From Acidobacteriota bacterium (lineage in GTDB: Bacteria > Acidobacteriota > Thermoanaerobaculia > Gp7-AA8), in the NCBI GenBank assembly GCA_025463165.1, contig JAOBAU010000124.1:1-32393 (forward strand): a DNA stretch of 32,393 nucleotides, given 5' to 3'. The notes beneath the pieces are model-generated. The model had not been told where the DNA came from. It made no database searches and saw only the letters and a program-made list of their open reading frames with translations. How positions within the stretch are numbered: the stretch's first letter is position 1; each line of letters opens with the position of its first letter. Of this stretch, positions 26,667-30,168 are shown in pieces. Made by a program: the position numbers and the translations under genes.

Positions 26667-27359
26667 ATGACCTTTTTCATCCACCCCGCCGAAGCCCGCC
26701 GCCAATTTGTCGAGCTTGCGGAATCCGAGATCACGACCGGCGATCTGGCGCGGGCTGCGCTGCTCATCGCGCTGGAGGACTATCCGCGCACGGACGTGCC
26801 GCGTTATCTCGCGGAGCTCGAGTCGCTCGTTGCGCGGGTTCGGGCGAAGGCGGTGGCGGGGGAGCCTCCGATTTTCTTGCTCGGGCATTTGCATGCGGAG
26901 CTGTTCGACGTCGATGGTTACAGCGGGAACAGCGACAACTACTACGACCCGCGCAATGCGTATCTGAGCGACGTCATCGATCGGAAGATCGGATTGCCGA
27001 TCGCGCTCTCCGTGATTTTTCTGCATGTCGCACACGCGGTCGGACTCGATGCGTATGGCGTCGGGCTGCCGGGACATTTCATCGTCAAGGTGCAGTTCGA
27101 GCTCAACGAGGTTTACGTCGATCCGTTTCATGGCGGCACGACGCTGACGCAGCCGGAGATCGCGCAGCTGCTGTCGAACATCAGCAACGGCCAGCTGCGG
27201 CTGGCGCCCGAACATCTGCGCGCGTGGGCGCCGCGGCAGACGCTCATCCGGCTGCTCGCGAATCTGGAGAGCATGTGGCGCGGTTCCGGCGATGCGCGCA
27301 AAGCGGCGGCCGCGCGCGAGCGGATGCTCATCCTTGACACCTCGCCGCGCGCCAACTAA
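26667..27359 (+). CDS. SirB1-family transglutaminase-like protein
   Basis: 230 aa, predicted cytoplasmic. The middle region matches the SirB1/UPF0162 transglutaminase-like core: YYDPRNAYLSDVIDRKIGLP, then IALSVIFLHVAHAVGL and GVGLPGHFIVKV. The C-terminal 40 residues form helical pairs (RQTLIRLLANLESMWRGSGD) of the type found as a TPR tail. The conserved His of GLPGHF is present, but the cysteine of active transglutaminases is not evident, as in other members. Function in the family is poorly defined. No clear ribosome-binding site precedes the ATG, which lies 21 nt after a hairpin. Its last codons contain the -35 of the trp leader promoter, and its stop codon is part of that promoter's -10. 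Confidence 0.88.
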   Translation: MTFFIHPAEARRQFVELAESEITTGDLARAALLIALEDYPRTDVPRYLAELESLVARVRAKAVAGEPPIFLLGHLHAELFDVDGYSGNSDNYYDPRNAYLSDVIDRKIGLPIALSVIFLHVAHAVGLDAYGVGLPGHFIVKVQFELNEVYVDPFHGGTTLTQPEIAQLLSNISNGQLRLAPEHLRAWAPRQTLIRLLANLESMWRGSGDARKAAAARERMLILDTSPRAN

Positions 27360-27362
27360 CCT
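27334..27362 (+). promoter_or_regulatory. Promoter of the trp leader / aroDE-trpE operon
   Basis: TTGACA (27334-27339) is a perfect -35 consensus, followed by a 17-nt spacer and TAACCT (27357-27362). TAACCT fits the TANNNT form of high-GC bacteria. The -10 overlaps the TAA stop of the SirB1-like gene. It ends 8 nt before the leader ATG, so the RNA would start at or next to A27371. This gives aroDE-trpE a promoter of their own, independent of the upstream gene. The transcription start is inferred, not mapped. Confidence 0.7.
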
Positions 27363-27370
27363 CGCCGGCG

Positions 27371-27412
27371 ATGAACGCCCCTCGCAATTCCTGGTGGTAC
27401 CGCCGCGCATAG
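27371..27412 (+). CDS. trpL: Putative tryptophan operon leader peptide
   Basis: A 13-residue ORF, MNAPRNSWWYRRA, ending in TAG. Two adjacent Trp codons (27392-27397) are followed by a Tyr codon, the hallmark of a trp attenuator leader peptide. It sits between a strong promoter and an intrinsic terminator, directly upstream of aroDE and the Trp-pathway gene trpE. There is no Shine-Dalgarno; its ATG lies where transcription is predicted to begin, so it is probably leaderless. The peptide itself would have no function. Its job would be to make ribosome position sensitive to charged tRNA-Trp. The Tyr codon might add sensitivity to another aromatic amino acid. Confidence 0.75.
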   Translation: MNAPRNSWWYRRA

Positions 27413-27501
27413 GGGCCGCGTTCGCGCGCCCCGACTGGAAGGGGCCGCCGCGTCAGTTGCAATTCGCCTGAACCTCTTCCGGATGCCGGAAGAGGTTTTT
27501 T
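27377..27501 (+). promoter_or_regulatory. Trp attenuator with six alternating RNA segments (A-F)
   Basis: Segments: A GCCCCT (27377-27382); B AGGGGC (27411-27416); C GCCCC (27428-27432); D CTGGAAGGGG plus C (27435-27445); E CCTCTTCCGG (27473-27482); F CCGGAAGAGG (27486-27495). A:B, B:C, C:D, D:E and E:F can each pair, and neighbours exclude one another. D:E has ten pairs, two of them G-U. A ribosome stalled at the Trp codons would cover A and leave B free to pair with C; then D pairs E and the operon is read through. A ribosome reaching the stop codon (27410-27412) would cover B; then C pairs D and terminator E:F forms. Without translation A:B, C:D and E:F give termination. F also carries the GGAAGAGG possible ribosome-binding site of aroDE. 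The model is from hand-made pairings, not folding energies. Confidence 0.72.
27473..27501 (+). terminator. Intrinsic terminator of the trp attenuator
   Basis: CCTCTTCCGG (27473-27482) and CCGGAAGAGG (27486-27495) form a perfect 10-bp stem with loop ATG, followed at once by six T (27496-27501). It ends 7 nt before the aroDE ATG, so it must be conditional for aroDE to be expressed from upstream. Confidence 0.9.
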
Positions 27502-27508
27502 GTTTGCG

Positions 27509-28768
27509 ATGAAACTGATCGTCACGATTCATGAAGAGACGCCCGCAGCCGCGATCGCCGCGATCCGCGCCCTGACGTTGCGCCATGACGTCGTCGAAGT
27601 GCGCTTCGACGCGTTTGGTCAACTACCGTACGACTTTCGTCCGTTCCGCGACGCGACGTCGAAGCCGATCCTCGCCACGAATCGCGGTCATGGTCATGTC
27701 GATATTGGTCGTGCGCTCGAAGCGGGGATCGATCTGGTCGACGTCGAATGGCACGAGGCATTGACGCTGGAGGCCGGGCGCGAACGGATCGTCCTCTCGC
27801 ATCACGACTGGAATGGCGTGCCGGAACTCGCGCCGCTCATCGATGCGATGTCGTCGTTCGGCTGCGCGCACATCAAGATCGCGGTGACGCCGCGAACGCT
27901 GCGCGAAAACGAGCTGTTGCTCGCCGCCGCCCGCACGCACGAACGGCTGTCGATTTTCGGGATGGGGGAGCGCGGACTTTACTCGCGCGTGCTCGCGCCA
28001 TTCTTCGGTTCGGAGCTGACGTTCGTCGCGCCGGACGAAGCGCACGTCGCGGCGCCGGGACAGCTGACGCTGGAACGGGCGCTGGCGATTTACGGGGATG
28101 GAGAGCTGCCGCGCGAGCCGAAGATCTTCGCGATCGCCGGCAACCCCGCGGGACACAGTCTCTCGCCGTCGATTCACAACCCGTTGTTCCGCAAGCGCGG
28201 AGTAAACGCCGCGTACACGATCGCCTCGTTCGAAACGTTCGATGAGGTCGCCGAGGCGTTTCTCTCGCGGCGCATCGCGGGGCTGAGCATCACCGCGCCG
28301 TTCAAAGAGGATGCGTACCGTTTCGCGGTCGACGCGGGAGCGGAGATCCGGCCGAACGCGCAGCATGCGGAAGCGATCAATACACTCGTCAACACGACGC
28401 GCGGCATGGTCGCGGAGAACACGGACGTCGACGGACTGCTGGCGTTGCTGCCGGCCGGTGTGAAGCGTGCCGCGGTCATCGGCGCCGGCGGCACTGCGCG
28501 CGCCGCCATCGCGATGCTGAAGTGGGAGCACGCGATCGTCGAAGTGTTCAACCGCACGCCGCGCACGATCCTCGGCTGCGCCACGAAGCCGCTCGAAGAG
28601 CTCGCGCGATTCGACGGCGATCTCATCATCGATACGTTGCCGGGCGGCGTCGACATCGAGCTGCCGAAGCTGCCGACAATCTCCGCGGCCTACTCGCGCG
28701 GCGGACTGAAACTCCTGCACGCGCAGGCCGGGCCGCAGCACGACATCTTTCTCGAGGCATTCGAATGA
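27509..28768 (+). CDS. aroDE: Bifunctional 3-dehydroquinate dehydratase (type I) / shikimate dehydrogenase
   Basis: 419 aa fusion catalysing two successive shikimate-pathway steps, dehydroquinate to dehydroshikimate to shikimate. The N-terminal type I dehydratase (about 1-195) has the general-base His in LSHHDW (97-101) and the Schiff-base Lys123 in AHIKIAV. The C-terminal dehydrogenase (about 205-419) has GNPAGHSLSPSIHN (substrate serines), catalytic Lys266 in SITAPFKED, NTDVDG (Asp306) and the NADP-binding GAGGTARA (325-332). Start ATG 27509; a TTG at 27500 would lie in the terminator T-run. The best ribosome-binding site, GGAAGAGG (27488-27495), is inside the terminator arm, so translation may also depend on the attenuator state. 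It overlaps trpE by ATGA, so the two are coupled. Confidence 0.95.
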   Translation: MKLIVTIHEETPAAAIAAIRALTLRHDVVEVRFDAFGQLPYDFRPFRDATSKPILATNRGHGHVDIGRALEAGIDLVDVEWHEALTLEAGRERIVLSHHDWNGVPELAPLIDAMSSFGCAHIKIAVTPRTLRENELLLAAARTHERLSIFGMGERGLYSRVLAPFFGSELTFVAPDEAHVAAPGQLTLERALAIYGDGELPREPKIFAIAGNPAGHSLSPSIHNPLFRKRGVNAAYTIASFETFDEVAEAFLSRRIAGLSITAPFKEDAYRFAVDAGAEIRPNAQHAEAINTLVNTTRGMVAENTDVDGLLALLPAGVKRAAVIGAGGTARAAIAMLKWEHAIVEVFNRTPRTILGCATKPLEELARFDGDLIIDTLPGGVDIELPKLPTISAAYSRGGLKLLHAQAGPQHDIFLEAFE

Positions 28769-30168
28769 ACTATGAATCGCTGCGCCAGCAGTACGACATC
28801 GTCCCGGTTTTCCGCGAGCTGTCGGCCGACACCCTTACGCCGCTCGTCGCGTTCGCGGCGCTCTCTCCCGGCGCGACGGAAGCGTTCCTGTTCGAATCCG
28901 TCGAGCGGGGAGAGAACGTCGGGCGCTATTCGTTCATCGGCTTCGAGCCGCGCCGCACGCTCGCTCCCGACTCCGCGCGCGTCGTCAACGAAGAGCTGCG
29001 GCCGCTGCGCGTCTACAACGAAGAAGCGCTTCCGCCGTTCTTCGGCGGCGCGGTCGGCTGGTTCGGTTACGGCGTCGCCGGCTGGACGGAACGGATTCCT
29101 GATTCGCATCCCGATGAATACGGCATCCCCGATGCGAAGCTCCTCTTCTTCGACAACGTCGTCGTCTTCGATCACGTCCGGCAGAAGCTGTTCGTCGTCG
29201 CCAATCTCTTCACCTCCGACGAACATGCGTCGCTCGACGCCGCCAACGCGCGCATCGAGCGCGCCATCGAACGGCTGCGCGGCGCGAGCGTCGAGCTGCT
29301 CGACTTCCCCCACAACCCGCCGCCCGCCGAGTTCCGATCGAACGTGACGCGCGAACAGTTCGAGCAGTCGGTGCGCGACGCGAAGGAAGAGATCGTGGCC
29401 GGCGAGATTTTCCAGATCGTCCTGTCGCAGCGTTGGGAGACCGACTACCCGACGAACGAAGCGCTGACGCTCTATCGCTCGCTGCGCTCGATCAATCCGT
29501 CGCCGTACATGTTTCTGCTGCGCGCCGCCGAGTGCACGCTGGTCGGCGCGTCGCCGGAGATGCTGGTGCGCGTCACCGGCGACGTCGCGGAAACGCGTCC
29601 GATCGCCGGCACGCGGCCGCGCGGCGCGACGCGCGAGGAAGACGCCGCGCACGAAGCGTCGCTCATCGCCGACCCGAAAGAAAATGCCGAGCACCTCATG
29701 CTCGTCGATCTCGGGCGCAACGATCTCGGCCGCGTCTCGAGCAGCGGCTCGGTTGAGGTCAGCGATTTCTGCCACATCGAGCGCTACAGCCACGTCATGC
29801 ACCTCGTCACGAACGTGACGTCGAAGCTGCGCGCCGGACGGACGCCGCTTGATGTGTTTCTCAGCTGCTTTCCGGCCGGCACCGTCAGCGGCGCGCCGAA
29901 GATTCGTGCGATGGAGCTGATCGATCGCTTCGAAACAACGCGACGCGGACCGTACGCCGGCGCCGTCGCGTACGCCGGCTTCTCCGGCAATCTCGATTCG
30001 TGCATCACGATCCGGACGATCGTTCTCGCCAACGATCGCGCGTACGTGCAGGCAGGCGCCGGCATCGTTTACGACTCCGATCCCGCCACCGAATACGTCG
30101 AATGCGTGAACAAATCGGCCGCGCTGCGGCAGGCGATCGCCGTCGCCAAAGTCAACATCTCACTTTAG
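28765..30168 (+). CDS. trpE: Anthranilate synthase component I
   Basis: 467 aa; converts chorismate to anthranilate, the first committed step to tryptophan, using ammonia from a TrpG partner not in this window. The N-terminal domain contains FLFESVE (about 41-47), the region of Trp feedback binding, so the enzyme is probably inhibited by Trp. The chorismate-binding domain has PIAGTRPRG, with Ala281 where PabB enzymes have Lys. That favours anthranilate synthase over aminodeoxychorismate synthase. Other conserved parts are LVDLGRNDLGRVSSSG, PAGTVSGAPKIRAMELI and the C-terminal GAGIVYDSDP. The ATG overlaps the aroDE stop by 4 nt. The GT2 gene begins within 12 nt of its stop. Confidence 0.95.
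   Translation: MNYESLRQQYDIVPVFRELSADTLTPLVAFAALSPGATEAFLFESVERGENVGRYSFIGFEPRRTLAPDSARVVNEELRPLRVYNEEALPPFFGGAVGWFGYGVAGWTERIPDSHPDEYGIPDAKLLFFDNVVVFDHVRQKLFVVANLFTSDEHASLDAANARIERAIERLRGASVELLDFPHNPPPAEFRSNVTREQFEQSVRDAKEEIVAGEIFQIVLSQRWETDYPTNEALTLYRSLRSINPSPYMFLLRAAECTLVGASPEMLVRVTGDVAETRPIAGTRPRGATREEDAAHEASLIADPKENAEHLMLVDLGRNDLGRVSSSGSVEVSDFCHIERYSHVMHLVTNVTSKLRAGRTPLDVFLSCFPAGTVSGAPKIRAMELIDRFETTRRGPYAGAVAYAGFSGNLDSCITIRTIVLANDRAYVQAGAGIVYDSDPATEYVECVNKSAALRQAIAVAKVNISL

Follow-up and report, generated by a model that had tools for sequence, protein, structure and literature searches.

Attenuators are usually regarded as separate inventions, one for each operon. In E. coli, the thr and ilvGMEDA operons each have a single leader peptide whose codons cover several of the operon's end products. 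The trp attenuator of E. coli (trpL; Rfam Trp_leader) has a short leader ORF with tandem Trp codons, forms an antiterminator when the ribosome stalls and a terminator when the ribosome stands at the stop codon, and controls trpE as its first Trp gene; in all these respects it is like the locus analyzed here. In the his attenuator of E. coli and Salmonella, the leader hairpin is separated from the terminator by an extra hairpin, which is held to lower basal read-through (PMC1183508). In Sinorhizobium meliloti, the trpLE(G) transcript begins at the ATG of a leaderless Trp leader located 5' of the trpE gene (PMC7298713). Outside Proteobacteria, Corynebacterium and Streptomyces have Trp attenuators of the classical type, whose leader peptides have repeated UGG codons and whose terminators are GC-rich (PMC1262725). 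The locus described here belongs to an Acidobacteriota bacterium, and the window is the whole stretch of 32,393 nucleotides that was analyzed (contig JAOBAU010000124.1). We propose, with a probability of about 0.9, that positions 27334-27501 form a ribosome-mediated transcription attenuator through which abundant charged tRNA-Trp represses aroDE-trpE, and that the same RNA switch has further copies in this bacterial family, before the his operon and before chorismate mutase. The evidence for the attenuator is computational throughout (sequence, folding and comparison), and we infer from it the transcription start, stalling, termination and amino-acid response in the window.

An earlier note on this DNA had described a TTGACA promoter, a 13-codon leader ORF and a terminator before aroDE, and all of them were found where it had placed them (Table 1). 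The promoter sits within the 3' end of an upstream transglutaminase-like ORF, and a consensus promoter scan of the window did not call it because its -10 is weak. In most relatives, TTGACA with a 16-19-nt spacer is also present 5' of the leader ATG. The -10 and the leader ATG are 8 nt apart in the window, and therefore the leader ORF is probably leaderless; this distance is 6-11 nt in many relatives and 22-79 nt in others. Counterpart leader ORFs in relatives include MNASRTSWWFLRS, MNAPRNWWWSRRS, MNASLRLWWWPSSE and MNATLRHWWWSLR. Behind the leader come aroDE, starting at ATG 27509, and then the Trp biosynthesis gene trpE, and their control is judged by position only. As to the description of aroDE-trpE as fused, the fusion lies within aroDE itself, which is a bifunctional gene; trpE is separate, and its ATG (28765) overlaps the stop codon of aroDE as ATGA. 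A further aroDE in the same genome is diverged (31% identity) and lacks a Trp leader (L002, L187; G000:C7). No rRNA was detected in this genome, and the 16S rRNA of relative G008 does not have the Acid31F primer site. A scan of genome contigs with one sequence gave AroE matches that were all distant and came almost entirely from Gammaproteobacteria.

Table 1. Features of the leader region and the genes behind it (positions in the window)
Feature	Positions	Strand	Basis
Promoter, TTGACA (27334-27339), 17 nt, TAACCT (27357-27362, weak -10)	27334..27362	+	sequence
Leader ORF, MNAPRNSWWYRRA then stop; 13 codons, ATG 27371, TAG 27410-27412, Trp codons 27392-27397	27371..27412	+	sequence
Segment A (GCCCCT), early in the ORF, partner B (27411-27416)	27377..27382	+	MFE fold
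Segment B (AGGGGCCGCG, starts inside stop codon), partner A or C	27411..27420	+	sequence; ribosome-position folding
Segment C (GCGCGCCCC), partner B or D	27424..27432	+	alignment
Segment D (CTGGAAGGGGC), partner C (sequester) or E (antiterminator)	27435..27445	+	D:E duplex energy, folding
Segment E (AACCTCTTCCGG), terminator 5' arm	27471..27482	+	sequence
Segment F (CCGGAAGAGGTT) and T-run, intrinsic terminator	27486..27501	+	terminator -20.7 kcal/mol
aroDE, fused 3-dehydroquinate dehydratase (type I) / shikimate dehydrogenase	27509..28768	+	Pfam PF01487 E 2.8e-28, PF08501 E 6e-17
trpE, anthranilate synthase component I	28765..30168	+	TIGR00564 above cut-off

Five chained pairings are possible between the leader ORF and aroDE, with A:B, C:D and E:F on one side and B:C and D:E on the other. 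In the proposed mechanism, the 13-codon, probably leaderless ORF would be translated while being transcribed. A ribosome stalled at Trp8/Trp9 would leave B free to pair with C; once B:C is formed, D would pair with E, the terminator E:F would be blocked and RNA polymerase would continue. A ribosome at the stop codon would mask B and let C capture D; with C:D formed, E would pair with F and transcription would stop. When no ribosome is present, A:B would form and the default would be termination.

Folding of the leader region is consistent with this logic. The whole region folds more stably than its dinucleotide shuffles (z -3.15). The terminator and its T-run (27496-27501) are present as the earlier note had claimed, but the stem is not 10 bp; it has 12 perfect pairs (27471-27482 with 27486-27497) around the loop ATG. 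The D:E duplex has 10 pairs and an energy of -17.2 kcal/mol (p 0.017 against shuffles). In our ribosome model, the RNA becomes free to pair 12 nt downstream from the first nucleotide of the A-site codon. With this model, the probability that E is sequestered by upstream sequence was 0.85 with the ribosome at the Trp codons, 0.12 with it at the stop codon and 0.24 without a ribosome. This difference of 0.72 between Trp and stop was matched by none of 300 dinucleotide shuffles of the spacer. The probability that D is paired upstream falls at the second Trp codon. Thus, in silico, the terminator and antiterminator are mutually exclusive and the position of the modelled ribosome sets the choice. 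The pattern that we defined for the core has 0.00 chance occurrences expected in the window.

The same promoter, Trp leader, segments and terminator are found before aroDE in relatives of the same family and the same order. The predicted logic, a Trp stall leading to antitermination and a ribosome at the stop codon to termination, is thus supported in silico both by these relatives and by ribosome-position folding. A terminator retained without Trp codons, which would have spoken against attenuation, was not seen; relatives that have the terminator before aroDE-trpE keep the Trp codons. Relatives have a B-like GGG..CGCG just after the leader stop, CGCCCC of segment C is invariant in 16 aligned trp, his and tyr leaders of the window's order, and CCTCTTC of segment E is invariant in the family alignment. 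Of the conserved Trp codons and covariation expected from aligning the leaders, the former were found, but almost no covariation was seen in our alignment A5 because the paired columns hardly vary; MAFFT alignments also blur the C-D spacer. Compensatory evidence therefore rests on D:E across families. Among the 15 leaders from the window's order, D:E reached significance in 13, and the cognate E outperformed the E of other families in 87% of comparisons. When first run without the terminator loop, this test was weak beyond the window's family; the version with the loop is stronger, and the loop was included after the first result was known. D is freed at the regulatory codons and recaptured at the stop, since the probability that D is held upstream was higher at the stop than at Trp/His in 36 of 46 leaders (p 5e-4). 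Over all leaders, the mean probability that E is sequestered was 0.73 at Trp, 0.54 at the stop and 0.59 without a ribosome in equilibrium folding, which separates no clear states in many relatives, including many dual leaders (see below). This suggests that kinetic trapping or the order of folding must matter there. In one relative (G010), D comes straight after the stop codon and there are just four segments, so the extra pair B/C can be missing while the logic is preserved.

Besides aroDE, the core stands before other operons in the window's family. On other contigs, the his operon of this family is preceded by leaders with runs of His codons (e.g., MNITRAHRHHHHHHQR, MKFTLAHRSHHHHHHVM). A profile built solely from the RNA that follows the Trp-leader stop codons found eight his leaders as its top matches (E 8e-11 to 6e-4), and the reverse search with the his-leader core recovered the Trp leaders. 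The core pattern occurred at 17 places in 12 of 18 genomes, compared with one in the reversed control. The trp and his cores of the family are thus homologous, as judged from their sequences. The pattern and a covariance model also revealed a third set, Tyr/Phe leaders (MNHSALRYAYYYGYYS, MTRTAQRFAYYYGYFT) before chorismate mutase type II (L308, L309, L313, L315, L317, L319, L322, L335, L339-L341), whose core matches the trp and his cores by both methods; at L317 a DAHP synthase domain lies just behind chorismate mutase. According to the covariance model, G003, G008 and G010 each have three copies of the core. Since this homologous core is common to the trp, his and tyr leaders, one switch appears to have been copied and then re-addressed by codon swaps. 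In the window's own genome, the assembly of which is fragmented, the trp copy alone was detected, and hisB was not found in this assembly. The model also gave a borderline match (E 0.007) before an isopropylmalate/isocitrate dehydrogenase-like gene in G020 (L338), which may be due to chance.

In eight families of the class, the genes form a 15-gene operon, aroDE-hisZ-G-D-C-B-H-A-F-IE-trpE-G-D-C-F (contents by tblastn). We located leaders by a rule that is blind to codon identity (a promoter followed by the first ATG ORF), and nearly all of the leaders found in this way have Trp and/or His codons. Those before the 15-gene operon hold both, as in AGWWHGVHHHGDF, VLWHWHHS and AWAWRTHHHHAVS; that of G029 is MNSPDSTFALVVASVAPATGVVATSWWAHGHGKG. 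The mean number of His codons among the last 14 was 3.45 in 20 genera with his-containing operons and 0.35 in 10 genera with trp-only operons (p 3e-6), where p counts genera, which are related; the phylogenetically independent contrasts number 3-5, none of them opposed, which is not enough for p < 0.05. Separate his operons have leaders with on average 6.1 His and 0.25 Trp codons. In L241 and L242, whose operon is interrupted behind aroDE, the dual leader precedes hisZ instead. The match between codons and operon has exceptions: a His-only leader, MQAMGTTRHHHHGPPRR, precedes aroDE-hisD-trpEG in G046 (L230); G119 has no Trp codons before an aro-his operon; G012 has three His codons before aroDE-trpE; and G018 of the sister family f2 (L200), with a partial his set arranged as aroDE-hisD-HisA/HisF-like fusion-HisS/HisZ-like-trpE.., has one His codon in its leader. 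A dual leader would presumably open on lack of either Trp or His, that is, by OR logic. Both the dual leaders and the homologous His and Tyr/Phe copies lie outside 27334-27511, and the earlier note did not anticipate them. Among the other classes of the phylum, RRWRATVHHHRYHA is the leader of one family whose operon includes his genes. Homology of the RNA core at the level of the class is weak (best E 0.0016). The Trp leaders before aroDE in the other classes (L255-L294) often end in a (T/A)EGA-like motif (TAEGAAV, TEGAPALA), which suggests a different RNA core.

A plain intrinsic terminator next to a fortuitous ORF, with read-through that is constitutive or controlled by a protein and with incidental Trp codons, would agree with the fact that several genomes of the window's family have aroDE without any leader. 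However, the Trp codons are kept across families and in other classes though the surrounding sequence varies, they are re-coded for His and Tyr/Phe before the his and chorismate mutase genes, and shuffles show no such switch, so we regard this explanation as extremely improbable. Control could also be mainly translational: the hairpin would hide the Shine-Dalgarno sequence of aroDE until a ribosome on the leader exposes it, and there would be little termination. In 38 of 47 leaders, the 3' arm of the terminator indeed carries an SD-like core (GGAGG/GAGG) at a distance of 6-10 nt from the in-frame start codon that follows, often TTG (e.g., L190, L196 and L198, upstream of aroDE), and some hairpins of family f8 have poor T-runs. 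In the window and most relatives, by contrast, a T-run follows the hairpin, and G008, G016 and G004 keep hairpin and T-run though the gene starts far downstream. The SD-like core of the window is 13 nt from ATG 27509 and 4 nt from TTG 27500, which is poor spacing, and for this reason we do not claim an SD role for the window. Mainly translational control is therefore very improbable, and the terminators of relatives may hide the ribosome-binding site of the first gene as well as ending transcription.

As for the dual leaders, their His codons might serve RNA pairing or the peptide sequence, while the operon is sensed via Trp only. By eye, the TGGCAC repeats of family f5 might pair with downstream sequence, and His and Trp stalls give nearly the same predicted fold, so that folding does not tell them apart. 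Against this, operons without his genes have leaders depleted of His codons, and His runs occur before pure his operons in otherwise the same RNA cores; we think that sensing via Trp only is unlikely. A tentative alternative, which we hold to be quite possible, concerns the history of these leaders: insertion of his genes between aroDE and trpE could have turned a Trp-only leader into a dual one, and the Trp-only leaders of the window's family may then be primitive. Consistent with this, aroDE-trpEGDCF with Trp leaders was found in 9 of the 10 families of other classes whose operons were read, all ten having been picked because a leader was seen. On the other hand, the 15-gene order is shared by both sides of the TrpE tree, which is midpoint-rooted and whose root is not established, and trp-only types fall in three places within the class; thus, loss of his genes is favoured over insertion. 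We infer both the direction of evolution and the common descent of the family's leaders and the class-wide leaders.

Taken together, it is likely that one core stands before three operons in the window's family, with the codons of the leader deciding whether it answers to Trp, His or Tyr/Phe. A dual Trp and His leader of similar build would, in relatives, gate the 15-gene aro-his-trp operon with OR logic, the two codon sets would separate where the operon is split, and in most relatives the terminator arm, which also carries the Shine-Dalgarno of the first gene, would make a double lock. These genomes would then be a natural experiment in which one switch is retained but its sensor codons follow the genes downstream, and a combined sensor for two pathways is among the variants. 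The evolution of attenuator specificity thereby becomes testable by comparison and codon swaps. In a 2010 survey, almost no predicted attenuators of Acidobacteriota had an assigned function (PMC2965389); our analysis assigns functions in a phylum-level group in which such leaders recur widely.

Rfam covariance models gave no match in the window at the gathering score and only unrelated matches at chance level with E <= 10. The T-box riboswitch model had no match in the window, which has a Trp leader ORF instead. A literature search limited to open-licence papers, and so weak evidence, revealed no description of a Trp and His leader, an aroDE-led attenuator or a re-coded family. We considered whether six segments are a new topology and rejected this. 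The layout is unusual for trp, as the earlier note had said, since E. coli trpL has four segments, but it has a precedent in the his attenuator (PMC1183508), and G010 has only four. The window shares its six-segment plan with hisL of E. coli and Salmonella as a layout, which does not imply homology; the window is predicted to sense Trp and hisL senses His, and as far as Rfam shows, their sequences are unrelated. Compared with E. coli trpL, the window has a probably leaderless leader, an operon that starts with aroDE and no Rfam match. The leaderless Trp leader of S. meliloti trpLE(G) is like that of the window, but it is not aroDE-led, and we know of no His or Tyr/Phe sister copies of it. The Trp attenuators of Corynebacterium and Streptomyces differ from the window in pairing sequences and gene order. 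While the amino acids of the thr and ilvGMEDA leaders share one pathway, the dual leaders of relatives join Trp and His, two pathways in one operon. In summary, there are precedents for multi-amino-acid leaders, for leaderless Trp leaders and for six-segment layouts; their combination, and re-coding within one family, are new as far as can be told.
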